From Xestospongia muta (taxonomy: Eukaryota; Porifera; Demospongiae; Haplosclerida; Petrosiidae), in contig OY848920.1 of the NCBI GenBank assembly GCA_963693285.1, positions 7,515,135 through 7,579,134 on the forward strand: a stretch of DNA of 64,000 nucleotides. Reading direction: 5' to 3'. Each line of letters starts with the position of its first letter. The stretch's first letter is position 1. Made by a program: the position numbers and the translations under genes. The notes beneath the pieces are model-generated. The model was given only the letters and a program-made list of their open reading frames with translations. It did no database searches and was not told the origin of the DNA. Positions 12,558 through 62,200 of this stretch are shown here, in pieces.

Positions 12558-15500
12558 ATGGCTACAAGAGATCATTCTTTTGAATCGTTTTTGGGAGAGA
12601 GTCCCACTCTTGACGAGTTATACGAGCATGTTAAACTTGGTACTAAATGGTATCAGTTTGGTGTACTTCTCAAGTTAGATTCAAAAAAGCTAAATGCTAT
12701 TGAAGAGCTGAATAAAGATGTTGATCGTAAAGCTTTAAAGATGTTTGAACACTGGCTGGATACTAGCATAAATGCTACTAGGAGGCAAGTTCTCGAAACA
12801 TTAAGAAAGGATAGTATCAGAGAGGTAGCTGTTGCGGAGAAGTATGAAAAGATATTAAGTCGTGAGTATACAGGTTCGTGATGCCTTTTTATAGTTATAT
12901 ATTAGAGTAACAGTACCAAAGGGATTCCCCTGACTGTATTGTCTACTGAATACTTAGAATACCTTAATACTTGTCAGTCCTTCTCCCTAGCATAATCTCT
13001 ACTAATATAATGTTTCTGAGCATTATAGTAGAAGTTGATGAAAAAGCTGAATTGCTCATCTTTCATCTTCTTCCACTATTGTCTGCACAATATCTCAGTG
13101 AGTAAAAGAAGACTTGCCACTATTTTCAAAGATGCAGCACAATCTGAAATAAACTATCCGACTTTGAATTTTTGTAGTTCGACCACTTTAGAAATGAAAC
13201 CATAGCAATATTTAATTGTTCCTTAGATCTATGACGTTTTCAGATTACATTAGGGAAAGCCACAACTGTAATGTATCAACTTCAATTATTTTGAATATAC
13301 AGTACACAAACATGAGGTAGTCAATTAACTCATAAGATATTTAACCTACAAGTAGGTAAAGTAACTATGATTAACCAATTGAGTACTTGAAATTGATCAC
13401 CTGTCTCTTAATGTATATTACAATTATAACCAAACTATTCTCTATTATTTCTAAACCATTAAGGGACTAAAATGTCAAATAAGAGGAAAAAATGTAATGA
13501 TGCAATATCAGGACCTCCTACTAAGACGTTTTGTAAGTACACTACTGTTTAAATTGATTAGTTCTTGAAACTAATAAGGCTATGGAACAAATATAGAATT
13601 TGTGCTACATGAAAGAATTATGGAAGCTTTAATGCATATTTTCTAACACTAATACATCATTTAGTGTATTCCAAAAAATTAAAAATGAGAGTTAGATTTT
13701 TAGTTGTTATTATTACGACAATGTATTTAGGAGAAATGTACTTCATGATGTGTTCTATCAGCTAAAATTAACTTCATTGTCACGTATACTATATAACTGT
13801 TAAGTTTGGTCACTTCTACACTCTATAGTTTATGACAACAGTGCTACCAATGGAAAAGTCATTCCCTTATGCCTTCCCAATGATTACGTGTGGGATAAAG
13901 AGAACAACACTTGCACAAAAAAACCAGTTAAACGGGATTCTCTTGTCATTAATGAGGAAGCAGTGAAAATCTTAAAAGAAATCACAAATCCTATTAGTGT
14001 AATAGCTGTGGTTGGGCCGTGTCGTTCTGGGAAGTCATATTTATTGAATCAACTGATACCATCTAAAGAATCTCTTTTCGAGTTAGGACATACAATGGAT
14101 CCAAAAACAAAGGGTATATGGATGTTGGACACTCCATTTCAACACACTCTTGAAAGTGGAAAAGAAGTAAAGGTAATTCTACTTGATACAGAAGGAGTAG
14201 ATGCTATCGAATCAGGTAGCCGAGGAGATACTCAAGTCTTTACACTTAGTGTTCTTTTGAGTTCTCTATTGGTATATAATTCTCCTCAAGTTCCAAAGCG
14301 TGAAAACTTGAATCAAATGACGTATGTTATTATTTATTATAAGTAAAATAATATTAAGATCCATCAAGAAGGCTACATTATACTGTCTAAGACTATATAT
14401 AATATAATTATAATATATTGCATGGCACAATTGTTGGTGGAATAATCATAAATGTATTCTATATTTCTGAGCTAATTTTATTTCTTAACTGCATGTGTTT
14501 GCTTTTAGTTTCATTGCCAATTTAGCTAAATCATTGGGAAGTAAAGGATCAGAGTCAACAAGTTCTTTCAAACAGATAGCACCATCATTTCTGTGGTTAC
14601 TAAGAGATGCTCTTCTTCAACCAGTGAATTCTCAAGGAAGTCACTGTAATTTTCAAGATTATTTATTGCATGAGGTGTGTTCTGTCATAAATAACTAAAA
14701 CGTTCAATTTTATACAGGTTTTAGCAGTTCCAGAAGACATTCCAGTTAATGACACCCAAACGCAAGCTAGCAAATGTCTTCTAGAATTTTTTGATTCATT
14801 AGATGCAGAAATGATACCACCTCCATCACTTGAGACTCAAGTTTTAGCTAATATTGAAGATCCAAGTTACAGACAATATATTAATCCAAAGTTTTTTCAG
14901 CAAATAGAGCATGTACATTGCAAAATTTTAGATGAATTGCAACCAAAAAGAGGCTATACTGAAGGTAGCTTGATGAATGGAATACGTAAGACATGTAACA
15001 TTAGGCATATTTATGTTATGAATTTCTGCATAGAATTTGCAGAAATACTAAGGATGTATGTTGGTGCTCTCAATTCAGAAGATGGTATTCCAAAGATTGG
15101 AACAGCATGGGATCAAGCTATGAAAAATCTGTACAATACTGCCATGACTAGAGCAAAGGAGACATACAAGAAAGCCATGGATATTCTTCAATTTCCAATA
15201 GAAGAAAATTTTTTACTGATGCATCATGAGGAGGCTTATAAAAAAGCTGTAAAGCTGTTTAGTCAGTTAACAGAACTTGATGGAGATAGAGATGCTTGTA
15301 AAAAGAATCTTGAAGATTTGACTGTATGTTCATTATATAATAAATAAATTTACTCTGTGTTATATAGGTAACCATTGCTACATATTCTGATGACAGTTCT
15401 GTGTGTAATGGTGGTCTTTTGTATGTTTACTTGGAAGAAAACAAGCAAGACTCTCAGAAATATTGTCAAGAATTACTTGGAAACCTCAGAATTCAGCATC

Positions 15501-16002
15501 TTAATCCAATCTTAGAAAATCTCTCTCATGAAACAAGCTATGACAAAATTGTCACCGTCATTGAAGAAATTAAGCAAAGCTACTTCAAGCAAAGCAAAGG
15601 ACCAGCTAAAGAAGATCAATTTAAAAAGTTCATGGAAGTAGGCTTGCTTTTAATAAATTTATCAGAATGACATTGCATTGTAGAACTTTGAAAGAGAAAA
15701 AAAGCAATTTATAACAACACTTAATCGCATGAAGAGCTATGATGATCAATTGCAAGATTTAATCAGGCATAAAATAGGTGACTTATATAATAGTATTGGC
15801 AGGAATTTAATTATAATGATTATGTTTTATAGAAACAGATAAAATATTAGAAGACAGGCAAAAATTAATAGAGGAATTACATGAACAAATAAAAATGAAA
15901 GATGAAAAAATCAATCAATTAATTGAAGAAAGCATGAAAAGTAAGAATCATATACATATATGGATTTTATTCACATCATTAGGCATGAAGTCTCTGTTTT
16001 AA
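12558..16002 (+). CDS. Death-domain GBP-like GTPase, copy A, 3' end cut by LTR element
   Basis: Nine exons join in phase: 12558-12861, 13464-13532, 13829-14321, 14509-14674, 14718-14985, 15034-15323, 15368-15637, 15684-15777 and 15833-15940, with a possible cassette exon at 13029-13097. Order of domains: death domain (about 1-101), basic linker (KMSNKRKK), GBP G domain with P-loop GPCRSGKS, switch TKGIW, DTEG and the GBP-type LRD motif, then the helical GBP C-terminal region and a Lys/Glu-rich coiled coil. GBPs hydrolyse GTP and assemble on microbial or vacuolar membranes. The 3' module present in copies B and C is absent. The donor at 15941 has no partner before the LTR, and read-through stops at 16000-16002 inside the LTR (about 707 residues). 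It may be a truncated product or a dying gene. Confidence 0.75.
13029..13097 (+). other. Probable cassette exon of GBP copy A
   Basis: A 69-nt stretch between exons 1 and 2 is open in the required phase (phase 1 in, phase 1 out). It has an AG just before and a strong donor (gtgagt) after. It encodes about 23 residues, including AELLIFHLLPLLSAQYL. The same exon with intact sites is kept at 18951-19019 (copy B) and 44275-44343 (copy C). It can be included or skipped without changing frame. Confidence 0.5.
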
Positions 16003-18472: not shown

Positions 18473-21400
18473 ATGGCTACAAGAGATCATTCTTTTGAAT
18501 CGTTTTTGGGAGAGAGTCCCACTCTTGACGAGTTATACGAGCATGTTAAACTTGGTACTAAATGGTATCAGTTTGGTGTACTTCTCAAGTTAGATTCAAA
18601 AAAGCTGAATGCTATTGAAGAGCTGAATAAAGATGTTGAACGTAAAGCTTTAAAGATGTTTGAACACTGGCTGGATACTAGCACAAATGCTACTAGGAGG
18701 CAAGTTCTTGAAACATTGAGAAAGGATGGTATCAGAGAGGTAGCTGTTGCGGAGAAGTATGAAAAGATATTAAGTCGTGAGTATACAGGTTCGTGATGCC
18801 TTTTTATAGTTATATATTAGAGTAACAGTATCAAAGGGATTCCCCTGACTGTATTGTCTAGTGAATACTTAGAATACCTTAATACTTGTCAGTCCTCCTC
18901 CCTAGCATAATCTCTACTTGTCACTAATATAATGTTTCTGAGCATTATAGTAGAAGTTGATGAAAAAGCTGAATTGCTCATCTTTCATCTTCTTCCACTA
19001 TTGTTTGCACAATATCTCAGTAAGTAAAAGAAGACTTGCCACTATTTTCAAAGATGAAGCATGATCTGAAATAAACTATCCAACTTTGAATTTTTGTAGT
19101 TTGACCACTTTAGAAATGAAACCATAGCAATATTTAATTGCCCCTTAGATCTATGACGTTTTCAGATTACATTAGCGAAAGCCACATCTGTAATGTATCA
19201 ACTTCAATTATTTTGAATATACAATACACAAACATGAGGTAGTCAATTAACTCATAAGATATTTAACCTACAAGTAGGTAAAGTAACTATGATTAACCAA
19301 TTGAGTACTTGAAATTGATCACCTGTCTCTTAATGTATATTACAATTATAACCAAACTATTCTCTATTATTTCTAAACCATTAAGGGACTAAAATGTCAA
19401 ATAAGAGGAAAAAATGTAATGATGCAATATCAGGACCTCCTACTAAGAAGTTTTGTAAGTACACTACTGTTTAAATTGATTAGTTCTTGTGACTAATAAG
19501 GCTATGGAACAAATATAGAATTTGTGCTACATGAAAGAATTATGGAAGCTTTAATGCATATTTTCTAACACTAATACATCATTTAGTGTATTCAAAAAAG
19601 TTAAAAATAAGAGTTGGATTTTTAGTTGTTATTATTACGACAATGTATTTAGGAGAAATGTACTTCATGATGTGTTCTATCAGCTAAAATTAACTTCATT
19701 GTCAAGTATACTATATAACTGTTAAGTTTGGTCACTTCTACACTCTATAGTTTATGACAACAGTGCTACCAATGGAAAAGTCATTCCCTTATGCCTTCCC
19801 AATGATTACGTGTGGGATAAAGAGAACAACACTTGCACAAAAAAACCAGTTAAACGGGATTCTCTTGTCATTAATGAGGAAGCAGTGAAAATCTTAAAAG
19901 AAATCACAAATCCTATTAGTGTAATAGCTGTGGTTGGGCCGTGTCGTTCTGGGAAGTCATATTTATTGAATCAACTGATACCATCTAAAGAATCTCTTTT
20001 CGAGTTAGGACATACAATGGATCCAAAAACAAAGGGTATATGGATGTTGGACACTCCATTTCAACACACTCTTGAAAGTGGAAAAGAAGTAAAGGTAATT
20101 CTACTTGATACAGAAGGAGTAGATGCTATCGAATCAGGTAGCCGAGGAGATACTCAAATCTTTACACTTAGTGTTCTTTTGAGTTCTCTACTGGTATACA
20201 ATTCTGCTCAAGTTCCAAAGCGTGAAAGCTTGAATCAAATGACGTATGTTATTATTTATTATAAGTATAATAATATTAAGATCCATCAAGAAGACTACAT
20301 TATACTGTCTAAGACTATATATGATATAATTATAATATATTGCATGGCACAATTGTTAGTGGAATAATCATAAATGTATCCTATTTTTCTGAGCTAATTT
20401 TATTTCTTAACTGCATGTATTTGCTTTCAGTTTCATTGCCAATTTAGCTAAATCATTGAGAAGTAAAGGATCAGAGACAACAAGTTCTTTCAAACAGATA
20501 GCACCATCATTCCTGTGGTTACTAAGAGATGCTCTTCTTCAACCAGTGAATTCTCAAGGAAGTCCCTGTAGTTTTCAAGATTATTTATTACATGAGGTGT
20601 GTTTTGTCATAAATAACTAAAACGTTCAATTTTATACAGGTTTTAGCAGTTCCAGAAGACATTCCAGTTAATGACACCCAAACTCAAGCTAGCAAATGTC
20701 TTCTAGAATTTTTTGATTCATTAGATGCAGAAATGATACCACCTCCATCATGTGACTCTTATGTTATTAAAAATATTGAAGATCCAAGTTACAGACAATA
20801 TGTTTATCCAAACTTTTTTCAGCAAATAGAGCATGTACATTGCAAAATTTTAGATGAATTGCAACCAAAAAGAGGCTACACTGAAGGTAGCTTGATGAAT
20901 GGAATACGTAAGTCATGTACCATTAGGCATATTTATGTTATGAATCTCTGCATATAGAATTTGCAGAAATACTAAGGATGTATGTTGGTGCTCTCAATTC
21001 AGAAGATGGCATTCCAAAGATTGGAACAGCATGGGATCAAGCTATGAAAAATCTGTACAATACTGCCATGACTAGAGCAAAGGAGACATACAAGAAAGCC
21101 ATGGATATTCTTCAATTTCCAATAGAAGAAAATTTATTACTGATGCATCATGAGGAGGCTTATAAAGAAGCTGTAAAGCTGTTTAGTCAGTTAACAGAAC
21201 TTGATGGAGATAGAGATGCTTGTAAAAAGAATCTTGAAGATTTGACTGTATGTTTATTATATAATAAATAAATTTACTCTGTGTTATATAGGTAACCATT
21301 GCTACATATTCTGATGACAGTTCTATATGTAATGGCGGTCTTTTGTATGTTTACTTGGAAGAAAACAAGCAAGACTCTCAGAAATATTGTCAAGAATTAC

Positions 21401-22862
21401 TTGGAAACCTCAGAATTCAGCATCTTAATCCAATCTTAGAAAATCTCTCTCATGAAACAAGCTATGACAAAATTGTCACTGTTATTGAAGAAATTAAGCA
21501 AAGCTACTTCAAGCAAAGCAAAGGACCAGCTAAAGAAGATCAATTTAAAAAGTTCATGGAAGTAGGCTTGCTTTTAATAAATTTATCAGAATGACATTGC
21601 ATTGTAGAACTTTGAAATAGAAAAAAAGCAATTTATAACAACACTTAATCGCATGAAGACCTATGATGATCAATTGCAAGATTTAATCAGACATAAAAAA
21701 GGTGACTTATATAATAATATTAGCAGGAATTTAATTATTATGATCATGTTTTATAGAAACAGATAAAATATTAGAAGACAGGCAAAAATTAATAGAGGAA
21801 TTACATGAACAAATAAAAATGAAAAATGAAAAAATCAATCAATTAATTGAAGAAAGCATGAAAAGTAAAAATAATATACATATATGGATTTTATTCACAT
21901 CATTAGGCATAAAGTCTCAAAAGGCAGATGGAAAAGAATTGAAGTTTAGTGATTCAGAAAAATTTAGTGAGGCACTAATTACTAAGACACTAATTACTAA
22001 GATTACAGTGATTAGATTATAATTGACCAATCAGATTGCATTATGCTGACTCTGTTTTGTAATAGGAGACATAGGAAGAGTTAAGTGGAGAATCGATGAC
22101 AGTACAATTCATATGATCTCACCAACTATTAAGCATTGTGAGGATGTTGTGAGTAGACTAAAGGAAGAACAACAGACAGGCAGTAAATGGAGTGTTTGGC
22201 TTCATACAGCAACTTCTGAAAGTGCTTTAGTAATTATTGTTAATCTTAATGAGTGTATAATCTGGAGACTTGGTATTTGGAACACTCCATTAAATGAAAG
22301 TTGTGTGTCAGCTTTGTCAGAGATATTTATTACTAATAAATCTTTAAAGAGACTGTTTCTCGAATCCTCTCCATTTGCTGATGTTGATGGTATCAAACAA
22401 TTAACGAATGTCCTTGCCACTAACACTACACTTGAAACATTAGAGTTATCAAATATTAATATTACAGATGAAGATACATCTTATTTATCCAACATGTTAA
22501 TGAACAACAAAGCATTGAAAGAACTAGACCTCACCGACTGTAATATCACCAATAGTGGCATCCAAAACATTTCTGAAGGACTCCAAAAAAACCAAACCCT
22601 GATTACATTGAACATCAGCAACAATCCATTAATCACTTCAGACAGTACTAGTCCATTATTTGAACTGATGAAAATGACTAAGTCATTGACACAACTATCT
22701 ATTAGCAATACTTCACTAAAAGATAATGACATTTTAACAATTTGTTATGCACTCACTACAAATAACACAATAAGGAAACTGGAGTTATCCATGCAGCATA
22801 AGGAGAGTTGTGAGAAGTTTGACTTTTATCAAGTTATTAAAGATAAACTTCGATTTTTGTAA
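18473..22862 (+). CDS. Death domain - GBP GTPase - coiled coil - LRR protein (copy B)
   Basis: Ten exons in consistent phase: 18473-18776, 19386-19454, 19751-20243, 20431-20596, 20640-20907, 20958-21247, 21292-21561, 21608-21701, 21757-21864 and 22066-22862 (TAA), giving 952 residues (975 with the cassette exon 18951-19019). Domain order: death domain (1-101), GBP G domain (P-loop GPCRSGKS, TKGIW, DTEG, LRD), GBP helical domain, Lys/Glu-rich coiled coil, then leucine-rich repeats from about residue 770 on (repeating LKRLFLESS..., LETLELSNINI, LKELDLTDCNITNSG, LITLNISNN, LTQLSISNTSL), of the type seen in NLR sensors. No disabling change was found. An intracellular sensor role, with LRRs for recognition and the death domain for signalling, is inferred from the architecture. 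Confidence 0.8.
18951..19019 (+). other. Probable cassette exon of GBP copy B
   Basis: Equivalent of 13029-13097: phase 1 on both sides, AG before, gtaagt after, encoding about 23 residues rich in Leu. Only a Ser-to-Phe change (LLFAQYL) relative to copy A was noticed. Confidence 0.5.
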
Positions 22863-38775: not shown

Positions 38776-39642
38776 GTCAATTACACAACTGTAGCTATAG
38801 GTAAACATGCACATTGGCTAATAAGAAAAATTAGGTTTGCTTATTCTTAAGACACTTCAATTACTATAATTAAAGTAGAATCAGGAAAAATATTTAGGTA
38901 AATTTCCATATCAGGATATTTTAATTTTAATTTTAATTATTGTTAATTAATTTAACTAGCACTCCCATAGATCCAAAAAGACCTTTGAACTTTATAAAAT
39001 CAATATTTCTCCAAGCAAGAAATCATATAAAGGAAACTGTATGAAGCTCAAGTGTTTTGTCAGAAGTGGTCTCTTATTGGAAATCAGCTCAAACATTATA
39101 GATAATACACTGTAAAAACTGATTGGTTGATTTATTTACTATATGGCTATATTGATTAAATTGCATTATGCAAACTGCATAAAATGTTAAAACTAACAAA
39201 TATTTTTAAAGAAATAAAAAAAAATTTCATTTGACAAAAATAATTAATTCCATCGGACAATAGTAATGAAAACTATATTATGTTTACTTTCAATTCGCAG
39301 TGAAAAGGTAAACAATAAATTATTTTATATATAACTTAGTGTACGCTAACAACATTGGCAATTCAACACTATAAAAATTAAATTGTTGATTTAACCAATG
39401 TATTGTTATACAGGTTGCAGGTAGTAAACTAATTTGATGTGAAAATAGACATAACATTGTTTTGATTTGATTACTAATTACTATTGTTTATGTAGCTATT
39501 AGTACATCAGTAATAAAAACAGTGTTATGTTTACTTTCACATCATACTAAGTTTGCTACATGTAACCTGTATAACAATATATTAATTAAATCAACAAATC
39601 AATTTTTAAAGTGAAGACTTCATATCATCAGCTACTTTAACA
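38776..39642. promoter_or_regulatory. Upstream region of F9, copy of 33068-33999
   Basis: Nearly identical to the F6 upstream region, including one truncated (39112-39303) and one full (39367-39613) MITE. No gene. Confidence 0.55.
39367..39613. mobile_element. MITE next to F9 start, copy of 33724-33970
   Basis: Same arms and flanks as 33724-33970, with one change in the right terminus (TTTTTAAAGTG). It ends 30 bp before the F9 ATG. Confidence 0.65.
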
Positions 39643-40785
39643 ATGTTCTTTAAATTTTTGGCTATTTGCTTTCTTTTGCTTCTACCTGTCAACTCTTCCA
39701 ATTCAGACGATCCTATTAAGGTGTATTGGCCATGGAAAAACTCTCTATGTGGTAAAGGTCCTTCTAGATCATTATCTAATTTTTCACTTGATGTTTCTCC
39801 CATTGGTCATTACTTAACTTGTAATAATGTCAACTATTGCAGCAAGTTTACAGTCTTCTATCCAACACAATATTATATTGAAGTCTCTAATAAATGTGGT
39901 AGTGATACTGAAAATCTAGTTGATGGACTAATAGAACAGTTAGGAGCCATCTCTGAATTAATTTACTCATATCCTGCAGGGTGTTTTGAGATTCTACAGA
40001 AAAATAAAAATTCTCAATCAGGTTATTATACAATACAAGCTCCTAACAATTCTCTTATATCTGTCTACTGTGACATGAAGGGTAGTAACTGTGATGGTAA
40101 GGGAGGCTGGATGAGAGTTGGATATCTCAACATGACTGATCCTGGCAGCTCTTGTCCTTCTGGACTAACTCTTCGACAATTTAACAACATAGATCATGGG
40201 CTTTGTGGTCGACCTATGTCTTCATCTGTAACTTATTCTGCTCATGGATTTAATTACAGCAAAGTATGTGGTCAAATAAGAGGTTATCAGTTTGGTTTTC
40301 CGGATGGATTTCCACCTTTACAAGCTACTAATGCCATTCCAAATATTGATAATTGTAACACATATGTTGATGGTGTTACTATTACTTATGGTAGTAATCC
40401 TCGTAAACATATTTGGACTTATGCTTGTGGTGTGGTGGAGACAATTTCAGGAAATAATTACCTTATTCCTTTTACTTGTCCATGTAGCACTGACAGTAAT
40501 GGTACATATGCACCAGAGTGGGTAGGTAGTGATTACTATTGTGAATCTGGATTACATTCATCACAATCTTACCACAAAGTATTATTCTCCAATGATACAT
40601 TGTGGGATGGTCAACAATGTAATGGAAGTGAAGGACCATGTTGTACTAACCCTAAGATGCCATGGTTTATAAAGACTCTCAATGCAACTACCACTGAAGA
40701 TATTGAATTAAGAATGTGTGGTAGTGAAGATCCATCAAGTGATGAAGACACTCCACTGGATATTATTGAACTTTACATTCGCTAA
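39643..40785 (+). CDS. Secreted fibrinogen-related protein, chimeric (F9)
   Basis: Single exon, 380 residues. Residues 1 to about 145 follow F6 almost exactly (same signal peptide MFFKFLAICFLLLLPVNSS, VYWPWKNSLCGKGPSRSL, SGYYTIQAPNNSLISVYCDM). From the GSNCDGKGG segment on it follows F2 (GGWMRVGYLNMTDPGSSCPS, CGRPMSSSVTYSAHGFNYSK, ACGVVETISGNNYLIPFTC, MCGSEDPSSDEDTPLDIIELYIR). The switch is at about 40078-40081. Neither stop codon of F2 is present. One Cys of F6 is replaced by Tyr (TQYYIEVSNKCGS) while another appears (NVNYCSKF), so the N-terminal disulphides may be rearranged. Intact and probably expressed from an F6-type promoter. Confidence 0.85.
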   Translation: MFFKFLAICFLLLLPVNSSNSDDPIKVYWPWKNSLCGKGPSRSLSNFSLDVSPIGHYLTCNNVNYCSKFTVFYPTQYYIEVSNKCGSDTENLVDGLIEQLGAISELIYSYPAGCFEILQKNKNSQSGYYTIQAPNNSLISVYCDMKGSNCDGKGGWMRVGYLNMTDPGSSCPSGLTLRQFNNIDHGLCGRPMSSSVTYSAHGFNYSKVCGQIRGYQFGFPDGFPPLQATNAIPNIDNCNTYVDGVTITYGSNPRKHIWTYACGVVETISGNNYLIPFTCPCSTDSNGTYAPEWVGSDYYCESGLHSSQSYHKVLFSNDTLWDGQQCNGSEGPCCTNPKMPWFIKTLNATTTEDIELRMCGSEDPSSDEDTPLDIIELYIR

Positions 40786-43700
40786 CTACTTCACACTTCA
40801 TGCTTTTACATATACAATGTTAAAATAGCATCACTATCTTTGTCATCATTATTTTGTCAGATTTGCCAAATGTGCCATGTACACTGTAAAAATTGATTTG
40901 TTGATTTAACTAATATATTGTTATACGGGTTATATGTAGCAAACTTAATATGCTGTGAAAGTAAACATAACACTGTTTTGATTCTAATATTATTAATATT
41001 ATATTTATTAGTAATAAAAACAGTGGTATGTCTATTTTCACATCATATTAGTTTGCTACCTGCAACCTGTATAACAATACATTGGTTAAATCAACAAATC
41101 AATTTTTACAGTGTATGGTTACATAATTACATGTAAATACATATCAATTTATTTGATGTAATAAAGTAAACATTATGTACAGTTTTCATTAGTAATGTAA
41201 TAAATCCACTATGGAATTGATTTATTATGTAGATAATTGTCATTAGAACTTTAAATGACGAGATGCTGAATCATAGCTATTTTATTCATACATATATACT
41301 GTAATCTCTATATACATATACATATTCATACATGTATAATGTAAGGGTACATGCAACCAAAATGTAATAAAACAACTAATCTGTTTATATGAGTTCCTAA
41401 TTATGATTCTCTTATCTGAGTCTACTATGATTAAGTAGAAGAGAAGTAATTATAACTGTGATTATTATTACGTAAATAATAAAGAAGTAGTTATTATGAT
41501 AATCCTGATTTAGAAAAGTTCCTACAAAAATGAAACTCAAAACCATCAAGAAAATTATCTGTACAATCAGGTAAGACCATTCATTCATCTGTCAACTGAT
41601 ATATCTGTCCATCTGTTTATATCCCATTCATCCATTTGTTCCTATGTATATGTTCACATACACATACCTCTTCATCCTTCAATCAGTCATTTATTAATCC
41701 ATCATTCTAGATCTAATAATTATAGACCAGATATTGTAAACATAACTTTGATTAAACAACAAGAAAGTCCTAGCTAATAGATATCATCATGTAATACAAA
41801 TCAATTGTGTGTCCATTGCTAGTCATATTGCTATTGGATCATGAAAAGAACAATTTCCTGAGTCAGCCGTTTTCCTGAGTCAGCACATTTTCCTGAGCTT
41901 ATAGCATGCATATAGTAACATTTATGTTACTAGAAATTACTTAGAAACTATAGCTTTGAAGCTATTTTAACAATGACTTTTAACAATTGAAGAGCAAATT
42001 ATTATAATTATGCTATAATCCAAATTAATTTTTATAAGAAATTTGAGTAAAAGTAGAAGACTCTAGTTTAACCCATAGTGTAGACAGTCTAAAACATGGC
42101 AGAATACGGATTCATGTCAGATCAATAAGATAACAAATCGTCTAGAGGTTTAGCTAGAAATCTATTATATATAATTAGTCTTGTGACCAGATGTCCATTT
42201 GGTTAATATGAGTTATAGAAGGTCATTAATAAATAGCATAAAGAGTAATGACCAAGTTGAAAACCTTGTCTCACTCAAACATTACAGAATTATCTAGTCA
42301 TGTGGCTAACTAAGTGATTTTTCGTAACCTTGTCTCTTAGGAAATTATGAGGCCTCTCTCCACTGGCTTGCATAGCTTATTGAGAGCCTGGAGAAAGACC
42401 AAACTAATTCTGTAAACTTTCATGTAGATTGAAGGAATCATTTAATTAGACATACCAGTTTTATAATCAACCTCCACCAGAGAATTCAAGTTAATAATTA
42501 GTGTACAAATGGGATGATGTTTGCAGACATATATGATGTTGTGAATTGCTTAATTTCTTCCACTAATCTATAGCCAATGTGCAATCAATTGGAAATCTAT
42601 TGGTTGTCTCTACACAGTCATTTAATAATATGTTAGTGTTGAGTCAGTTTCATTCTGAATAAATGTTACGTGTAAATACTCATTTATGTCTAAGATTAAA
42701 ACTTATCCCCTAAATCTATCGGAAGTTATTGACTTCACAGCTTAATTAATTTGCAGCAGTGTTTGTAGAAGAGAAATATAGGCAGAGAATCTTTAAGCAC
42801 TATCAGTCACACCTAATGTTGTTATATGCATTATCATGATCAGTCACTTTAATTTCATAAAACAATTTTTAAATTTATTTTAAAAATGTTTGTAATTTTG
42901 GCCTGGAATCATTTTCATGTGATTATTTCATGTACTTAGGGTTTATTTGTAATACATTACAAAAAGATTGATTAGTTTTCTTCACTTGTAGTGCAGTAGA
43001 TGACATTTACAAAATGACAATTTTACCAGATGGTCAATACATTTTATTAGTGGTTTTAGTGTCAAAGTATATGTACAGATATATTATATAGAATGTTAGG
43101 TATTTATCCATATATATGAGTTATGTGAGACCATTATTGAAACATTATATATGTCACATGATAACAAGTGGGTGTGGTAAAAGCTATGACAGATGTATTG
43201 TTGGTATGTATATGGAAGTATTGTGAAAGAAATAGTATATGTGTTCTATGTAGCCTAGCAGTGAATGAGACTGAATTCAATTGTTTATACAAACAACTTT
43301 TATGGGTAGACATCATTGTTGACTCTTTTCAAGATCTCTTTCAATGTTACTCAAAGATATTTAAGAGATGTACTATTCAATATTTGTCCAGTCATAATAT
43401 AAGGTTTTAGATAAATATTCTCTCTGTAGATCTAGACTCCATTTATATTATTGTTATACAATGTATATAAAGTTGTCTATCCATTTGTTTCTCTATTTAT
43501 ACATAATCATAATCATAGGCTCATATTTGCTAATCTAGTACTAGTACTATCTTCTAGAAAGATTTGGTATTAGCAACTCAATAAAAAATTTTTGGAGCTA
43601 AATTTAATATACATACATATTGGAAAGTTTGTGTTATATATATATATTGGTGACAAACTTTGCAATTACTACAAACGAAAGAAATAACACACCTTGTTAT

Positions 43701-43795
43701 TGATACGTCATACATATTCTCACTGATTATAATCAATGTGTTTTCGTCACATTTCGTATTCTATTGACACACCCATGCAAGCGGATAATTGATTC
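40786..43795. other. Non-coding spacer, copy of 9450-12557
   Basis: Nearly identical to the spacer between F2 and GBP copy A, with a few small indels (for example near 41165, 43380 and 43710). No gene. Contains a MITE at 40882-41113. Confidence 0.6.
40882..41113. mobile_element. MITE, CACTG termini, copy of 9546-9777
   Basis: Same element and same ta/ta flanks as 9546-9777, copied by the segmental duplication rather than by a new insertion. Confidence 0.75.
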
Positions 43796-46700
43796 ATGGC
43801 TACAAGAGATCATTCTTTTGAATCGTTTTTGGGAGAGAGTCCCACTCTTGACGAGTTATACGAGCATGTTAAACTTGGTACTAAATGGTATGAGTTTGGT
43901 GTACTTCTTAAATTAGATTCAAAAAAGCTAAATGGTATTGAAGAGCTGAATAAAGATGTTGAACGTAAAGCTTTAAAGATGTTTGAACACTGGCTGAATA
44001 CTAGCACAAATGCTACTAGGAGGCAAGTTCTTGAAACATTGAGAAAGGATGGTATCAGAGAGGTAGCTGTTGCGGAGGAGTATGAAAAGATATTAAGTCG
44101 TGAGTATACAGGTTCGTGATGCCTTTTTATAGATATATATTAGAGTAACAGTACCAAAGGGATTCCCCTGACTGTATTGTCTACTGAATACTTAGAATAC
44201 TTTAATACTTGTCAGTCCTCCTACCTAGCATAATCTCTACTTTGTCACTAATATAATGTTTCTGAGCATTATAGTAGAAGTTGATGAAAAAGCTGAATTG
44301 CTCATCTTTCATCTTCTTCCACTATTGTTTGCACAATATCTCAGTAAGTAAAAGAAGACTTGCCACTATTTTCAAAGATGCAGCACAATCTGAAATAAAC
44401 TATCCAACTTTGAATTTTTGTAGTTTGACCACTTTAGAAATGAAACCATAGCAATATTTAATTGTTCCTTAGATCTATGATGTTTTCAGATTACATTAGA
44501 GAAAGCCACATCTGTAATGTATCAACTTCAATTATTTTGAATATACAATACACAAACATGAGGCAGTCAATTAACTCATAAGATATTTAACCTACAAGTA
44601 GGTAAAATGACTATGATTAACCAATTGAGTACTTGAAATTGATCACCTGTCTCTTAATGTATATTACAATTATAACCAAACTATTCTCTATTATTTCTAA
44701 ACCATTAAGGAACTAAAATGTCAAATAAGAGGAAAAAATGTAATGATGCAATATCAGGACCTCCTACTAAGAAGTTTTGTAAGTACACTACTGTTTAAAT
44801 TGATTAGTTCTTGAAACTAATAAGGCTATGGAACAAATATAGAATTTGTGCTACATGAAAGAATTATGGAAGCTTTAATGCATATTTTCTAACACTAATT
44901 ACATCATTTAGTGTATTCAAAGCAATTAAAAATGAGAGTTGGATTTTTAGTTGTTATTATTACTACTTATAGTTGACAATGTATTTAGGAGAAATAGACT
45001 TCATGATGTGTTCTATCAGCTAAAATTAACTTCATTGTCAAGTATACTATATAACTGTTAAGTTTGGTCACTTCTACACTCTATAGTTTATGACAACAGT
45101 GCTACCAATGGAAAAGTCATTCCCTTATGCCTTCCCAATGATTATGTGTGGGATAAAGAGAACAACACTTGCACAAAAAAACCAGTTAAACGGGATTCTC
45201 TTGTAATTAATGAGGAAGCAGTGACAATCTTAAAAGAAATCACAAATCCTATTAGTGTAGTAGCTGTGGTTGGGCCGTGTCGTTCTGGGAAGTCATATTT
45301 ATTGAATCAACTGATACCATCTAAAGAATCTCTTTTCGAGCTAGGACATACAATGGCTCCAAAAACAAAGGGTATATGGATGTTGGACACTCCATTTCAA
45401 CACACTCTTAAAAGTGGAAAAGAAGTAAAAGTAATTCTACTTGATACAGAAGGAGTAGATGCTATCGAATCAGGTAGCCGAGGAGATACTCAAGTCTTTA
45501 CACTTAGTGTTCTTTTGAGTTCTCTATTGGTATACAATTCTGCTCAAGTTCCAAAGCGTAAAAACTTGAATCAAATGACGTATGTTGTTATTTATTATAA
45601 GTATAATAATATTAAGATCCATCAAGAAGGCTACATTATACTGTCTAAGCCTATATATGATATAATTAAAATATATTGCATGGCACAATTGTTGGTGGAA
45701 TAATCATAAAAGTATCCTATTTTTCTGAGCTAATTTTATTTCTTAACTGCATGTGTTTGCTTTTAGTTTCATTGCCAATTTAGCTAAATTATTTGGAAGT
45801 AAAGGATCACGGACAAGAAGTTCTTTCAAACAGATAGCACCATCATTCCTGTGGTTACTAAGAGATGCTCTTCTTCAACCAGTGAATTCTCAAGGAAGTC
45901 CCTGTAGTTTTCAAGATTATTTATTACATGAGGTGTGTTTTGTCATAAATAACTAAAACGTTCAATTTTATACAGGTTTTAGCAGTTCCAGAAGACATTC
46001 CAGTTAATGACACCCAAACTCAAGCTAGCAAATGTCTTCTAGAATTTTTTGATTCATTAGATGCAGAAATGATACCACCTCCATCACTTGACTCTCATGT
46101 TATAGCTAATATTGAAGATCCAAGTTACAGACAATATATTAATCCAAAATTTTTTCAGCAAATAGAGCATGTACATTGCAAAATTTTAGATGAATTGCAA
46201 CCAAAAAGAGGCTATACTGAAGGTAGCTTGATTAATGGAATACGTAAGTCATGTACCATTAGGCATATTTATATTATCAATCTCTGCATATAGAATTCGC
46301 AGAAATACTAAGGATGTATGTTGGTGCTCTCAATTCAGAAGATGGCATTCCAAAGATTGGAACAGCATGGGATCAAGCTATGAAAAATCTGTACAATACT
46401 GCCATGACTAGAGCAAAGGAGACATACAAGAAAGCCATGGATATTCTTCAATTTCCAATAGAAGAAAATGTTTTACTGATGCATCATGAGGAGGCTTATA
46501 AAGAAGCTGTAAAGCTGTTTAGTCAGTTAACAGAATTTGATGGAGATAGAGATGCTTGTAAAAAGAATCTTGAAGATTTGACTGTATGTTTATTATATAA
46601 TAAATAAATTTACTCTGTATTATATAGGTAACCATTGCTACATATTCTGATAACAGTTCTGTGTGTAATGGTGGTCTTTTGTATGTTTACTTGGAAGAAA

Positions 46701-49597
46701 ACAAGAAAGACTCTCAGAAATATTGTCAAGAATTACTTGGAAACCTCAGAATTCAGCATGTTAATCCAATCTTAGAAAATCTCTCTCATGAAACAAGCTA
46801 TGACAAAATTGTCACCGTCATTGAAGAAATTAAGCAAAGCTACTTCAAACAAAGCAAAGGACCAGCTAAAGAAGATCAATTTAAGAAGTTCATGGAAGTA
46901 GGCTTGCTTTTAATAAATTTATCAGAATGACATTGCATTGTAGAACTTTGAAATAGAAAAAAAGCAATTTATAACAACACTTAATCGCATGAAGAGCTAT
47001 GATGATCAATTGCAAAGACATAAAAAAGGTGACTTATATAATAGTATTGGCAGGAATTTAATTATTATGATTATGTTTTATAGAAACAGATAAAATATTA
47101 GAAGACAGGCAAAAATTAATAGAGAAACTACATGAACAAATAAAAATGGCAGGTATAAATAAGTGATAGTTGTTACTGTAGTTGTAATAATCATATCACA
47201 TGCCACACCTATTCATTAGAAATGTATATCTTATGAAAGAATTCAATTTATATGTTTTATTTATTCTTTCTTCCTGTTATTCAGAGCACATAATACTCAA
47301 TGGCCTTGTAATTGTTTGTGGACATGTGATTTTTTCCTAAACATTAACTTACAATATTATATTCTAAGTACTTAATTTGATAACATATGATGATCAGTGT
47401 TAGCGAAATCATTAAACGATAAAAGTAAATGGTATTAAAAGTAGAAGAATAGTAATATATATCAAATACTTTGGATTGTTCATAAATGCATGTCAAGCTC
47501 TTTACATAAATAGATTCAAAAATTAAAATTTATTTATATCCTTAGGTTTAACTTCACCGGACAGTCTTTTAGATGAACAGCCACCAATTTTAGAATTAAT
47601 TGAACATGCTAGGACTGCACAATGGAATCTTTTGGGTGTGAAACTAGAACTGGATACTGAGGCTCTAGCTGAATGTCATGACTATACAAGTATGTATCAG
47701 TTATGGCTTCAGGAGAAAGCTGAAAATGCCACTAGAAGAAACTTGATAGCTGCATTAAGAGCAATAAGACAAAATAATGCTGCCAGAAAATATGAAGATT
47801 ATCTGAAAACAAAAGTTAGTGACTTACTCAATGTATTATATTATTTTTATGAAGAAGATACATAAAATTGCATGGCTTTGTAGTATTATTATAATTGTGC
47901 TATATAAACAAGTAATGACCAAAGGAATGAAAGGAATGTCTAACTATTCTGATATGTTTTCTGCCAGGTTTGTTTGCCCATATAAGGAATTATAGTCTTA
48001 ACACCTTTTCAAGCACTTGCATGAGCAAACCATGAGCTTTATAGAACTTGTAATGTATGCTTTTGATCTCATGCCTAAGGTATGTTTATACTTAGCTTTA
48101 TTTAAAATAGTGTGCTGAGGGTACTTTCATTTGTTCTCTACTACTGTTTATTATGTGGTCACATATAATAATACTGATTTTTTCATTATAACAAATCGAT
48201 AATTATAAGGTTGTTCTCTTAAATAGTTTAATATATTAATCACTATATATATACAGGTAGCAGGAAATAAAGACACTAAAAAGACTACAAGAGATGGTGA
48301 TAGCTTACATATAACAGGACCAAGTAGTAAGTATGATGTACTAGAGGTCATATTATTCATATTTTAAGTAACTTTGAACATTGTCTCTATTTTGTTTCTA
48401 TACTTAAATATTGTCATCCCCTTGATACCAAATTAGGTTCATCAGGGCAGGCTGCCTCTACTGAGATGCTATATGACAGTAAGTGGTCAGTAAATAACAT
48501 ATATAACTATTATACAGTAGTCATTTTATAGACCATGTAATACATTATTTTTTAACATTTATCTTTACTGTTTATATTCCTCTATAATATTGTACAATTA
48601 ATGCATATTATATGATGATATTGATTGCTTGCATTTAATCATAGCTGTAGGTGAATACTTGTTGACAATTGAAAATAGAGTGTCTTTGGGTTATATATTA
48701 ATATAGAAGATGTTGATATATAAGCTTTTCTTTTGTCATTGTGGTTTATATTTGGCAGATATAGCTAAATTATTGAATAAACTTTAGTTCTCTTTCTTCT
48801 ATACAAGCCCATGACATTTATCTAAGTAATTCACTTTTTTAGGTAAATTATACAAAGAGTTTACTGAAGGGGTGATGGTAAATGCCAAAAAAGATCATAA
48901 AGTCGGTCTTGCTGTCATATTTGGTGTAGTAAATAGGACAGGACCTCAAGGAGCCGATTTAGATATTGAAAACGTCAAAACGACTTTTGATGACCTCAAC
49001 TATGCTACTTGGGTTATTAAAAATCCAACACCTACAATAATGGAGAGTGTAGTCAAGATTGTGTCAGAGTACAAGTACTTCTCCATTGAATTGAAATGGG
49101 TCGTTTTCTATTATGCAGGTCATGGTGGAAGTATAGATAAGAAAGGGTATTTTATTTTACCTTGTGAAAACAATGAACACAAAGTTTTCCCTATTGATTC
49201 AAAGGTTATTGATCCATTTCAACCCGGCTATCCAAATTGTCATCTTGAAGATCGTAAACGTTTGTTTCTCTTCGACTGTTGTTTAAAGGAAGACGCAACT
49301 GAAACATTACCAACAACAGCTCCACCTCCATTAGATCCTTATCTACCTTGCTATCAACCAGCTAATGATTACACTATCGTTGCACATGCTACGTATTACA
49401 GAGAAGTCGCTCGTGGTGATTTTTCAAACGGAGGTGTCTGGACAATTAAATTATGTCACAATATAAGAGAACATGCAACAAATATGGAAGTGAATGATAT
49501 TCTTATCAAGACAAGAGATGAAGTAGTTTGTGAGACAAAATATAAAGTCCAAGCTCCCTTTCAAATAGTGAATTGTGGACATGACTATCTTGTTTAA
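43796..49597 (+). CDS. Death domain - GBP GTPase - death domain - caspase-like fusion (copy C)
   Basis: Thirteen exons join with matching phases: 43796-44099, 44710-44778, 45087-45579, 45767-45932, 45976-46243, 46294-46583, 46628-46897, 46944-47028, 47084-47152, 47546-47814, 48257-48326, 48437-48478 and 48843-49597. They total 3150 nt, 1049 residues, with no stop. Domains: death domain 1-101; GBP G domain with GPCRSGKS (187-194), TKGIW (218-222), DTEG (244-247), LRD (320-322); GBP helical domain and short coiled coil to about 671; second death domain 672-761 (LGVKLELD, ENATRRNL, ARKYEDYL); linker; caspase-like domain from about 815, with YYAGHGG (His 892) and FLFDCC (Cys 944/945), and a p10-like GGVWTIKL segment. 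Expected role: GTP-driven assembly bringing protease domains together. Function is inferred; the splice model needs transcript proof. Confidence 0.8.
44275..44343 (+). other. Probable cassette exon of GBP copy C
   Basis: Same 69-nt, phase 1/1 exon as in copies A and B, with AG before and gtaagt after. If included the protein is 1072 residues long. Confidence 0.5.
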
Positions 49598-52500
49598 CCC
49601 AGCTAGGGTATGTTATATTATATTTGTTTAACTACAACAATAAGTTTGTCTTTAATTGATAACAATGAATTGTATATACAAATACAATATGAAATAAGTT
49701 GTAATTATTATACATTAAACATTATTTATACACATTTACTTGTCATTTTTTTTCGTTCTGTACAGAGACAAAGAAACTCAAGATGTGTGGATATATTAAC
49801 ACTAAAATATTTTAGTTCCTATCATCAAATCTATAGATAATATTAGGTATCTTGCTCAGTTATTGTAATAATCTGTTTTCCATATTAATACATTGAATTA
49901 TTTGTAATATGTAATGATTCCCTTTTTATATTTTTGGTTAATTATGGTTTAATTTGTTGCCATACATTATATAGTACAAGCAACAACAGGTACAGTTAGG
50001 TAATGTACTTTGTAGGTTCTACTGTAGAGTGTCATATTCCCTAGTGCTACAATTGACGTGACACAAACATTATAGTATTTCATGTGCTGACTTACCAATA
50101 TATTACTTAGTATATTTGTCTATAGATTAATCATAATCAGTTCTGCCTTATTATGATGACATGAGATCAGAGTTTGTCTAGCAACACAGATTTACTAAGT
50201 CAAACTATTATTATTCTCAAGCCTTTTTACTTAAACTATATTATTGTACAGTGATATGAAATTTACTGAGAATATGAATAATGTATAGACTTGTTAAAAG
50301 TTAAATGAAACAATTTGTACTTGTCTGCTGTAAATGTCTAACAACAGTTTAGTTGACTACAATCACTATTCCATTAACTGAACTATTCTCTTGATATCTC
50401 TGTCAGTGGCCATGTCAATGTATTATTAGTAATAGTAACTGCCATATTACTAATGAAAGCAGGGTATAATATAGTTCCAGTGAAAAAGAAAGCAAGAGGA
50501 AGGACTGGTCATATACAAAGACATAGTGTATGTTTCTTAAGTGACAATATAAATTTAGTTTGTGCCCTTTAATAGCAAATCCTTGGAAAAGAACTGGTAC
50601 ATGATTGTTGTTTTCATTACTTGAAGCTACATGTAGAAAACCTTTAGGATTATAGAAATAAACCTATTAATATTATTAAGACCTATTAATAATATTAAAA
50701 TTGGTATAAAAACAGTTGTATCAGCTATGATTTGAGAAAACATCAATTCAAATTGTATATAGTCATGAAGAAATAAAAGTGTCCTAGATGTGTCTGGTGT
50801 TGAAAATATTGTCACATTTCACATATTCAGAAGTACTGGTGCTAATATTCTATCTAAAAAGAGATAAAATGTAACCACTTTTCAGTATAACCTGTCTTTT
50901 GAGTTGTCAATCGGGCATGGCAGTTTAGTAAGACAAATAACTACTGGAATAGGTCTTCCCTATAGCACATGGTGTATATAGTTAGTTGAAAGAACAAATT
51001 GAAGAGCTCTGCATGAAAACACAAGAAAGACTTGGGATAACAGGGCTGGAATAATTATGGTTGTTCCTCTATTTTGTGAAGTGAATCCCAGCAGGACTAT
51101 AAAATGGAATGAATGTTACAACTTTAGACTTAGCTAATGCCTCTGGTTTAAGTTGAGTATAATTATTCTGCTTTGGTTAACTGAATGGCAAGCCTATTTA
51201 AAGGATACACACCAGTTGTTTTATATCCAGAAGTTATGTTATTTTCTGTAATAGTTATTGACTTATACTACTCTTGTGTAAAAACAGATCAAAGATCATA
51301 AATAATAGCTTGATGTTGACTTTTTGTAATAAAATTATAACTTTCACCATTCTATTTTAATAGTGCAAAAAATGCTTTCTAGAGGTTGGCTTAGGTGAGT
51401 AGTGTTCGAAAGAAGTACAAATATAATAATTCTATTAGGTGCAGCTGCCCTAATTACATTAAAGAATACTCATTTAAAAGCAATATCAAAGGAGTGCAGC
51501 AAGAAAGGACATATTTTAAAAGTGACTCATCGACGAACAGTTAAATATTTCCATATCCATCCCAACCCTTTGTACATAATCTATAAGCTGTTCCACATCT
51601 TACACTTAGCTAATGCGTACTTTTCTATGGCTAGTTATGGATTTAAACTTTCATGATCAAATGATACCAAAGGCAGAATAGCATAGACAACAATGCTAGT
51701 AAACTTAACTCTGTAATTTAAACACTTTGAATTGTAGGTAAGTAACTCATCATTTTTGTCCCTCGTTCATCAACTATTCTCAATACCTTTGCATTAAGTA
51801 ACATAGTTCTTTCATCACAGTTAAATAATATAATTATGATAGGATTTGTTAAATATGCCTTTTTATCAGTTACAGCAACCGTGAATAAAATAATTATAAT
51901 AGTTTACCATATCAAATTTTACCCAAATTGTGTTTCTGTGCAATATGATAGTATGATTTACAAAACTGTAGTTTATAATTTAAGTTAGTTCTGTCTAAAA
52001 CAAACTTTAAATTTAGTAGCTTAGTAGTTTGTTTAAAAACAAATCTACACTTGTATATGCATATATGTATCTTTATAAATTTTATTTCATCACAAACGTT
52101 GATGTTATTTGTTTTTGTAATGTAAACTTTGTACATGTTTTGTTATATCACACATTGACATTATATTTAATAAACATTGCCAAATAGAACAACAATGTTT
52201 CTCTTGACAAATGAACAATAAACAGCTTTTGATGTTTGATACTGAAAGGGAAGATTTAAAATCATGCAACAAAAAATAAAGATCATGCAACTAATATTTC
52301 AATATCATACAGATTTAAAATCATGCAGGAGATTATACGTTTTTACATATATTTAATGCAATAGAGAAGGAACTTCCAAGAATCAATAGTACTTCTATTT
52401 GTGACCTGATTTGCAATAAGGGACCACTTCTGTCAAAGCATTTGTGACAAGATATATGAAAAAAGACAACTGTTAAAACATTTTATACATGCATACATGC

Positions 52501-54622: not shown

Positions 54623-57600
54623 CTTACTTCATCTATAGCTGAGAATATTTCGAGTTCAGAAGCCTTATAAAATGTTTATTTTAATTGTTTACATTTTTTT
54701 ATAAACTATCGTGCTATATATGGAATAAGGACAGCTGTGCTATATATCATAAACAGTGTATATTATGATATAATTCCATAGTGATTTCAGTCAATTTGCT
54801 GACTCATAATGTGAATTGAAAGTCTACATATGTGACCTTATCATGAACTTCTGTCAAAATATTTATGTAAAACACTGGGTTATAAGCAGTTTATTATCAG
54901 GCACGCGGTAGCAGTGCTTATGTAGGGATAGTCCGAATTGTCCATTGAAATGTAGATACAATGAAATTTCACTCAAAATTGATCAAAATCATTCAATTTT
55001 TGCAGTATTTCCTTCTATAATAATCCTTTCAGCATAATAGTGCAAGTGGTACAAATAATTAATAATATTCACCAACCATCTAAACCACTAAAAATATCAG
55101 TGCTATGTTATGTCATTCCATTCTGTTCCTGAGCTATTATTACGTAGGGATGATGCAATTGTCTTCCCTACTGTTTTGTGTTCATTATTTGTTTTGGATT
55201 GATATTACCGTACATTTACTTTTTTTAGTATTTTTTAAAAAAAGGACTTCTTAATACAACACTTACAAACTTTTATAATTAAATAATCAATAAATGTTTT
55301 GAACAGAGATAGTAAACATCAACTGAAAATGTACAGTTATGTGTACATGGTACTGAATATATTCAAAACTGTTTTGAGATTTTTAATATGAGAGAAATGG
55401 TCTCTTTTCACAAATCATGATCAGGTCACATATTATACCTGTAATATCTGATGTATTAAAAGGACAAGATTGTGTGTTCTTTATTAGTCTGTACAGCCAG
55501 TTATAATGGTGTAATATAAAAGTTACATCACTAAGTCAAACATGTTAATTAAATTACTTTGCAATACATTGTGTATATCTCAGTTCTCACAGTAGAGAGA
55601 TCAGTATTGAAGTCCATGGACATATTCTATGAAACTCAATGCTTTCGATAACAAAGCTTTGCCTATCTGTCTGTAAGAAGTGAGTGCTACTTCATATTAT
55701 ACTGACTATAGTTTTAGAACACTATAGGGTTTTAATCCCAAACTGTCACACACCACAATTAAAAGGCAGTCTAGTACATACGTTTGATCACACTTATCAT
55801 AATTAAACATTTTGTTAGTAGACTAGTAGTGTCAATGTAACTAATACTAGTTCTAACATAGAGATGGTATGATGGAATCGTTTATGACAAAAACATTAGC
55901 ACTGCTAAGAACATTGTCATAATTTATCAACTAATGAATACAGGACAGGTCAGATAGTTATCATCATCAGAGCTATGTAAGGTTAGCTATTCTGATAACA
56001 CAGTTATAATCTCTGGACTAAGAAATTTGAGCAAATGTATCAGGCTCTATAGTTTAACTTATAATGTAGGCAATCTAAAACATGGCAGAGTGTGGATTCA
56101 TGTCAGATCAATAAAATAAAAAATTGTGTAGAGGTTTAGCTGGAAATCTGTTGTTACAATTAGTCTTATGTCCAGGTGTCCATTTGCTTAATATGAGAAA
56201 AGGCATCTGATGACATGTATTTAATTATTTACCATTTTAACAACATTTCAGCTAACCAATCAGAATGATCAAAATCTGACATCATCAGTCACATGAATCA
56301 TTATCAATAAAACATAAGTAAACATTATGGAAAAAGTATAGTTCTTCTGAAAGTACTTCTTGAAGCTATCACAAGTAAAATGAGATAGAAACTATATATA
56401 TTACCTGAACCAAATCTCCTTAACTGTGATCTGCCATCATTTCTCATGAATGACATTATCATGATATTATAAATAATGCAAAAGATTTGACTAACACCTC
56501 TAGTTATGGAAGGTCATTAATAAATAGTATGAACAGTAATGGACCAGGTTGAAAACCTTGTCTCACTCAAACATTACAGAGTTATCTAGACGTGTGGCTA
56601 GCTGTGTGATTTTTCGTAACCTCCTGCATGAGTTACATAGGAAAGTATGAGGCCTCCCTCTCCTGGCCTGCATACTTTCTTGAGAGCATTGGAGAGAAAC
56701 CAAACTGAATTTAAAAAATGTTCATGTAGACTGAAGGAACCATTCAATTAGACATACCACTTTTATTATCAACCTCCACCAGAGAGTTTAAGTTAATAAT
56801 TAGTGTACAAATGAGGTGATGTTTGCAGACATATATGATGTTGTGAATTGCTGACTTTCTTCTACTAATCTATAGCTAATGTGCAATCAATTGGAAATCT
56901 ATTGGTTGTCTTCTACATAGTCACTTAATAATATGTTAGTGTTGAGTCAGTTCTATTCTGAATGAATGTTACATGCAAATACTTATTTATGTCTATTTTA
57001 AAATTAGTGAATGGAGATAGTAAACTCAGACTGTATACATTACGTAAGAACAAGTGTCATGCTGAAAAAGTTAGGAAGCCTTGGAGATATGCCTTGACTA
57101 GCTTTTAAGTCATTAAACTTCAAATAGTTATGAGTTGACATCATAGGCCACTGACAACCTATACCAGTGGATGAACATTTGTCACAGCAATACTATTTGT
57201 TGAATGGGTCAAATGTAGTTGAAGATGAATTTCTCATTTTGATGAACTGCTGAAAATATTCTAATTATCTGTATTCTTTGCTCTTAATATGACATCGCGA
57301 CTTTTCATCAAGTCTTTCCTTCTCTATCTTCAAATAATATAATTATTAGATATGTCCCCTAACTCTTATTTTAGTATCTAAACACCACTATTGTTATTTT
57401 TTTTAGTTGCAATACCATATAATCACACACTATATAGATTGTTTTATTAGAGCGCCGCATCTTTAGAAGTATAACGGTAGCTTTTATTTATTTATAAACA
57501 TTAATAACCTACCAAAGGTAACATTACTTCGCCCACGACTTCCGATACGTCTTTTCATTTAAAAGATGTTTATCAATTTCGACATCATTATTGCTAGTTA

Positions 57601-57641
57601 ACAGACAACGATATTACAGTAGAAGTAGACTGACTTTCTCA
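54623..57641. other. Non-coding region with old repeats
   Basis: No supported gene. About 54830-55433 looks like a degenerate copy of the GACCTGATTT MITE, with distant inverted ends (gtgaccttatcatgaac and caaatcatgatcaggtcac). About 56040-57000 is a diverged third copy of the spacer at 10720-11330 and 42060-42660. The last ~120 bp before 57642 are duplicated at 59117-59243 and probably hold the promoter of the four-TM gene. Confidence 0.5.
56040..57000. repeat. Diverged copy of the F2-GBP spacer segment
   Basis: Collinear with 10720-11330 and 42060-42660. Landmarks are ctaaaacatggcagag, tcatgtcagatcaataa, gttgaaaaccttgtctcactc, caacctccaccagagag and tgttagtgttgagtcagtt. About 300 bp (56200-56500) is present only here. 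Conservation without coding potential could reflect an old duplication or a non-coding RNA or regulatory element. Confidence 0.55.
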
Positions 57642-62102: not shown

Positions 62103-62200
62103 CTGTATTCAACAATGGAGGCAGAAAATAATATTTGAGTAAATAATATTTGAGCTTAAAACTTAGTAATAGAACGAAAGAAGTATCTCTTTTTTTTCAG

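Follow-up and report, generated by a model that had tools for sequence, protein, structure and literature searches.

A 64,000-nucleotide stretch of the genome of the sponge Xestospongia muta (C4:7515135-7579134, hereafter the window) contains what appears to be a single gene for a GBP-type GTPase and a caspase, raising the questions as to whether these are indeed parts of one gene, how they came to be joined, and what the product might do. The gene, which we refer to as gene C, has 13 exons at 43796..49597 on the forward strand and is predicted from genomic DNA; coordinates are those of the window unless a contig is named, and the genome searched comprises 158 Mb in 28 contigs. We favor, with a probability of about 60%, the interpretation that gene C is a young chimaera, in which a copy of a death domain-GBP (DD-GBP) gene, carrying its 5′ flank along, became joined to the apparent start codon of a death domain-caspase (DD-caspase) gene at the sequence AAAATG, and that its product would provide GTP-driven caspase activation within one chain.

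All 12 introns of gene C are bounded by GT...AG and all phases agree, giving a protein of 1053 amino acids with a single terminal stop, which confirms the claim of an earlier note on this DNA that thirteen exons join with matching phases and no stop. Exon 1 (43796..44111) includes the start codon and the first death domain (DD1, residues 1-106), and exon 2 (44710..44778), a Lys-rich linker, is also present in two paralogous DD-GBP genes in the window, copies A and B. The GBP G domain occupies exon 3 (45087..45579), exon 4 (45767..45932) and part of exon 5 (45976..46243), which also begins the GBP helical part; this continues through exons 6 (46294..46583) and 7 (46628..46897) to a helical tail in exon 8 (46944..47028), where gene C has a 9-nucleotide in-frame gap relative to copies A and B at about 47015. 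Exon 9 (47084..47152) is chimaeric, with its acceptor side derived from the DD-GBP gene and ATGGCAG plus the donor site from the DD-caspase gene. The second death domain (DD2) lies in exon 10 (47546..47814), followed by linker exons 11 (48257..48326, conserved in the stand-alone DD-caspase gene L038) and 12 (48437..48478, Ser/Thr-rich, likewise compared with L038), and by exon 13 (48843..49597), which contains the caspase domain and the stop.

The predicted chain thus reads, in frame, death domain – GBP GTPase – helical stalk – death domain – caspase; Pfam scans, including one of DD2 by itself, agree with the order given in the earlier note, and every part belongs to a known family. Pfam GBP (PF02263) matches residues 165-421 with an E-value of 2.6e-42 (145.2 bits, cut-off 21.1), and for exon 3 alone the best solved relative by sequence in the PDB is GBP2 (E = 2.1e-24). 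The P-loop GPCRSGKS (residue 191), which aligns with GLYRTGKS of GBP2, completes with TKGIW (222) and DTEG (248), both also in exon 3, and LRD (324, in exon 4) the GBP motif set GxxRxGKS, TKGIW, DTEG and LRD; the Arg of this P-loop we take, from the GBP family, to have a catalytic role. The helical part matches Pfam GBP_C at residues 430-674 (E = 1.4e-11, 44.8 bits, cut-off 24.3) over positions 1-233 of the 297 in the profile, leaving the profile end uncovered, and a Pfam scan of the whole protein of the closely similar copy B lists no GBP_C at an E-value of 0.01. Pfam Death matches two stretches (E = 5.4e-11, the best at residues 17-91), with DD1 scoring 32.9 bits and DD2, scanned alone, 27.5 bits against a cut-off of 22.6, and Peptidase_C14 matches residues 824-1037 (E = 1.3e-17). 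The caspase domain has the motifs YYAGHGG (892) and FLFDCC (944), and its catalytic His and Cys (H896 and C949, or H93 and C146 of the exon-13 peptide) are nearly invariant (at least 90%) across 26 sequences. While the textbook Cys box of caspases is QAC, gene C has DCC instead. Within residues 672-1049, for which the earlier note had proposed structure prediction, two domains were modelled separately: the caspase domain is modelled well (predicted local distance difference test score, pLDDT, 82; predicted template modelling score 0.85), recovers caspase matches and has a caspase fold, whereas the AlphaFold2 model of DD2, built on an alignment of only four sequences, is all helical and weak (pLDDT 56) and was set aside, and the DD2 sequence has no match among solved structures.

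The coding nature of both halves is suggested by their recurrence elsewhere, exons 1-9 being present again, stop-free, in the two paralogues and exons 10-13 again, gap-free, in L038. The longest open frame in 47149-49800 is moreover 255 codons, a length reached by none of 1000 first-order Markov sequences of the same composition (maximum 176).

Comparison with these relatives locates the joint precisely. Copy A (12558..15897, forward strand) shares with gene C a block at 40055..47148, corresponding to 8719-15897 with the 5′ flank, in which the flanks are 99% identical over 2.4 kb, and its nine exons are intact to the same Met codon. Similarity between gene C and copy B (18473..22862, forward strand) ends at the same base of gene C, 47148 (21821 in B, 15897 in A), beyond which A and B stay alike for a further ∼97 bases. 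L038 is on the minus strand within C4:6288800-6297000, and its similarity to gene C begins at 47143, spans all four introns with gaps at ∼85% DNA identity, and continues for ∼660 bases past the stop. The two homologies therefore overlap by only the six bases AAAATG (47143..47148), and searching the whole genome with the DNA of 46900-47620 agrees with this, GBP copies matching query bases 1-249 and L038 matching from base 244. The left edge of the duplicated block (40055; 8719 in A) is within a fibrinogen-like gene at 39610-40785, to which several other genes in the window are similar.

An overlap as short as this could in principle reflect an assembly error linking two unrelated loci, but we give this very little credence. 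Assemblers generally misjoin at long repeats and not at 6-base overlaps, and the 31 gene C-specific changes in exons 1-9, together with the ∼85% identity to L038 in the 3′ part, indicate that both sides are distinct copies.

The ATG within the overlap has a different role in each parent. In the DD-GBP gene it is an internal in-frame Met codon (...HEQIKM), and in L038 it is the apparent start, followed by GCAG and a GT donor, with an in-frame stop seven codons upstream. A more distant relative of the DD2 family, L042, encodes MASAG directly before its death domain, and a tblastn search with the gene C protein finds no match to its GBP part upstream of L038. Taken together, the upstream stop, the missing GBP match and the MASAG of L042 make it most likely, as far as these genomic comparisons go, that the DD-caspase gene ancestrally started at the joint ATG. 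Because this ATG is in frame in both parents, joining there preserves the frame automatically.

What lies upstream of the joint ATG bears on whether there is one gene or two. In gene C the ATG is preceded by the coding sequence of the GBP and, at a greater distance, by the DD-GBP 5′ flank common to copy A, and the 4.8 kb upstream of L038 exon 1 has no match in the window except for two weak pieces inside the LRR (leucine-rich repeat) exon of copy B. The caspase half thus probably relies on the promoter and reading frame of the GBP gene and, as it has no 5′ DNA of its own, two independent adjacent genes are unlikely. We therefore do not favor two separate neighboring genes, and the single-gene reading of the earlier note is strengthened both by the breakpoint on an ATG in frame in both parents and by the absence of the caspase parent's upstream DNA from the window search.

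A subtler alternative is that one locus has two outputs, with transcripts mostly ending in or retaining intron 9 to give a DD-GBP protein of ∼680 residues, and with the DD-caspase part rarely made or made from its own start at the ATG at 47146. Read-through of the exon 9 donor does reach a stop after the residues MAGINK, intron 9 contains three ATTAAA signals (47411, 47434 and 47522), and the joint ATG has A at −3 and G at +4. On the other hand, the window is 31% GC and ATTAAA is thus expected often, no AATAAA is seen in intron 9, the sequence just upstream of the ATG is the GBP coding exon, and L038 retains both the GT of the exon 9 donor and the AG of the exon 10 acceptor. We consider this alternative unlikely, although a short DD-GBP form may be made. 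About 100 bases of intron 9 (47356-47460) recur in at least 36 copies at 75-77% identity, those listed all being on C4 between ∼2.85 and 5.36 Mb.

The substitution patterns are compatible with use of gene C, as judged from aligned coding sequences, but do not prove it. In exons 1-9 the three copies differ from each other at 46-56 of ∼2,020-2,030 bases with ratios of nonsynonymous to synonymous substitution rates (dN/dS) of 0.48-0.52 for the three pairs, and 45 of the 71 copy-specific changes are nonsynonymous against an expected fraction of 0.787 (p = 0.002). For gene C alone the corresponding count is 20 of 31 (p = 0.049). Gaps among the three copies occur at four sites in introns and at one in exons, the in-frame gap in exon 8 of gene C. 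Exons 10-13 of gene C and L038 differ with a dN/dS of 0.31 (0.23 for the death domain, 0.25 for the caspase) and no gap.

Several observations weigh against our interpretation. The linker between DD2 and the caspase has a dN/dS of 1.24 between gene C and L038, although on few sites, and the G-domain part has a dN/dS of 1.0 between copies A and B. When 31 substitutions are placed at random, 22% of trials remain free of stops, and an open frame in the GBP half therefore says little by itself. Most of the divergence of the caspase from L038 probably predates the fusion, such that its dN/dS is no proof of use since then. Constraint on gene C after fusion is accordingly weakly supported by these comparisons, and we rejected dN/dS as a functional proof for the fused form as too weak. 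The stop codon TAA of gene C is CAA in L038, which reads on, so that the very end of the gene C protein differs. The L042 frame is open upstream of its ATG and an AG is present 17 bases before the L038 ATG, and thus neither start is proven. A genome-wide DNA search across the joint, in which 40 of 62 candidates were scored, revealed no further joined copy among its 40 matches, and the joined form is thus represented by a single copy in one genome, with nothing against which to gauge its conservation. Finally, GTPase and protease activity, clustering and expression of gene C are predictions from genomic sequence.

Some of these points would also suit a recent functionless rearrangement heading for decay on a chromosome full of shuffled death-domain genes. 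The joined form was found once, the flank at 41001-43000 is only 0.4-0.5% different from that of copy A, the nonsynonymous deficit of gene C is marginal, and death-domain and LRR exons are very numerous, with at least 150 genome matches to Pfam Death (150 scored of 1488 candidates) and at least 144 to the LRR exon type (144 of 537 candidates scored), the latter mostly on C4. Against this, the 13 exons have no internal stop, frame shift or broken splice site, the catalytic positions of both enzymes are retained, and the one coding gap is in frame; we regard decay as improbable. The low divergence of the flank is not matched within the gene, where C and A differ at 56 of 2022 exon positions (2.8%) and 39 of 1309 intron positions (3.0%); gene conversion with another copy possibly accounts for this mismatch between 41001-43000 and 43796-47148 (and 9665-15897 in A).

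The favored chimaera appears to be singular in its combination of parts. Among the exon-level matches listed (at least 36 in one genome search and at least 106 in a second), no further GBP match is accompanied by a caspase match on its own strand within 15 kb. A protein search with gene C yielded 78 matches at an E-value of 0.001 or below, each with a GBP domain and not one with C14 among its precomputed domains (the 7993 candidates sharing most words scored, with few matches from named animals); a search for GBP and C14 domains occurring together in other proteomes had been proposed in the earlier note. The DD-caspase part yielded 25 matches, up to 94% identical, and PF00656 is the sole listed domain in all 25. 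In a limited search of the open-access literature covering sponges, corals and other invertebrates, we saw neither a GBP and a caspase described as a single chain nor a protein with the order DD-GBP-DD-caspase, in keeping with the earlier statement that none was known. Gene C would also encode the first GBP with a built-in protease known to us.

New combinations as such are unremarkable amid the shuffled death-domain exons of this genome; what sets gene C apart is the choice of parts and the readability of the joint. A DD2-caspase query, for which 108 of 429 candidates were scored, has at least 108 genome matches, the majority to its death-domain part, and in an array on C6 death-domain exons are found ∼1.3-2.2 kb before same-strand caspase exons (for example 820718 to 822829 and 896875 to 899290), likely representing stand-alone DD-caspase genes. 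Tandem-like blocks of ∼0.8-1.6 kb with 93-95% identity are present at 57513-64000 in the window.

We can propose how such a protein would work, by analogy with GBP and caspase biology. Gene anatomy suggests that the DD-GBP promoter drives the caspase, which would be made as a GBP tail. GBPs cluster upon binding and hydrolysing GTP, and the GBP part of gene C may self-assemble in this way, perhaps on microbial or damaged membranes, crowding the tethered caspase domains and activating them by proximity. The two death domains could reinforce the cluster and recruit separate DD-caspases and death-domain proteins of this genome, with DD2, the recruitment handle of stand-alone DD-caspases, now fixed to a GBP platform; a cut in the Ser/Thr/Asp-containing linker (residues ∼766-803) may free the protease. 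Sensing platform, adaptor and protease would then be united in one chain. The broader proposal, that a single polypeptide constitutes a whole inflammasome, in which a GTPase that senses or coats its target, a scaffold of death domains and a caspase were brought together by a single in-frame joining at the start codon of a caspase gene, we advance only tentatively; that it would act as a 'self-contained inflammasome-like device', in the words of the earlier note, we infer from the parts sitting on one predicted chain.

The interest of gene C is that coupling of a GBP to a caspase can be tested in one protein. In vertebrates GBPs and caspases meet in one pathway via coats, adaptors and recruitment, and if gene C is expressed as one chain, this would suggest that it can suffice to couple GBP assembly directly to a caspase. 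The joint also shows how an immune gene can be born in one step, a start codon that by chance matches an in-frame Met turning a 5′ end into a tail.

The DD-GBP copies, three of which are closely similar and within 37 kb, differ in what follows the shared exons, providing a natural tail-swap series with ends cut off beside a gag-like open reading frame, in LRR and in DD-caspase. Copy A is followed by open reading frames at 16095-18110, the first of which has a zinc knuckle match and a PNMA (gag-like) match, the latter below its cut-off. Copy B can read on by an in-phase splice into an LRR exon (22066-22862), giving a predicted DD-GBP-LRR protein of 956 amino acids, in which LRR_6 scores 29.7 bits for the exon alone against a cut-off of 23.4 and 20.3 bits, below the cut-off, in the whole protein. 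A tblastn search with the LRR part matches only copy B in the window, with no LRR match after copy A. Part of the copy B LRR exon recurs as a 98%-identical fragment of 490 bases at C4:7582391-7582880, ∼3.3 kb past the window end and ∼18 kb downstream of gene C, and this is perhaps a relic of a lost GBP tail. An LRR-like coding stretch is present in the first 490 bases of L038 on the reverse strand, ∼4.3 kb upstream of the stand-alone DD-caspase gene, and is 38% identical to the LRR of copy B. A probable fourth DD-GBP gene is located at C3:11725010-11728257 (77% identity in the death domain, 83% in the GTPase exon).

Among known systems, the closest at hand is L038 itself, which matches gene C exons 10-13 including introns but starts at its own apparent ATG and has no GBP part. 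Human GBPs, to our knowledge, have no death domain. In human cells a GBP1-led coat (GBP1-4) is reported to recruit and activate caspase-4 (PMC7314798), resembling the role proposed for gene C in that a GBP assembly is the caspase-activating platform, although the available excerpts of that paper describe the coat and the caspase as separate, unfused proteins. Zebrafish Gbp4 has a C-terminal CARD, and its GTPase activity and Asc are reported, in the part of the paper available, to be required to activate a caspase (PMC4932187). It is thus similar to gene C in pairing a GBP GTPase with a death-fold domain at the C-terminus that leads on to a caspase, and different in using a CARD, Asc and a separate caspase where the predicted chain of gene C adds DD2 and the protease, as well as a leading death domain (PMC4932187). 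In Amphimedon, Death-TRADD-N proteins form large lineage-specific families with variable C-termini, some of them caspases, and another animal TRADD-N clade includes fusions to GBP GTPases (PMC8195603, available in part). Gene C resembles the former in its N-terminal death-fold unit and in the caspase as a possible C-terminal effector, but the caspase and GBP fusions are placed there in different clades and not in one chain (PMC8195603), and the Pfam scan of the gene C protein lists no TRADD-N. The earlier view that vertebrate GBPs and caspases are separate proteins therefore stands for the protease but is incomplete, since zebrafish Gbp4 includes a CARD (PMC4932187) and, beyond vertebrates, some animal TRADD-N domains are fused to GBP (PMC8195603). 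Copy B invites a further comparison, with the DD-NACHT-LRR proteins of the NLR type described in Dysidea avara in the available part of that account (PMC12909245); its predicted DD-GBP-LRR product has the NLR layout with GBP where NACHT sits, its GTPase being of the GBP family and not a STAND ATPase, and gene C differs again in having no LRR (PMC12909245). Judged against the accessible portions of these accounts, each part of gene C, death-fold proteins with variable tails and TRADD-N-GBP fusions (PMC8195603) are known, and what is new is a GBP and a caspase in one predicted chain.

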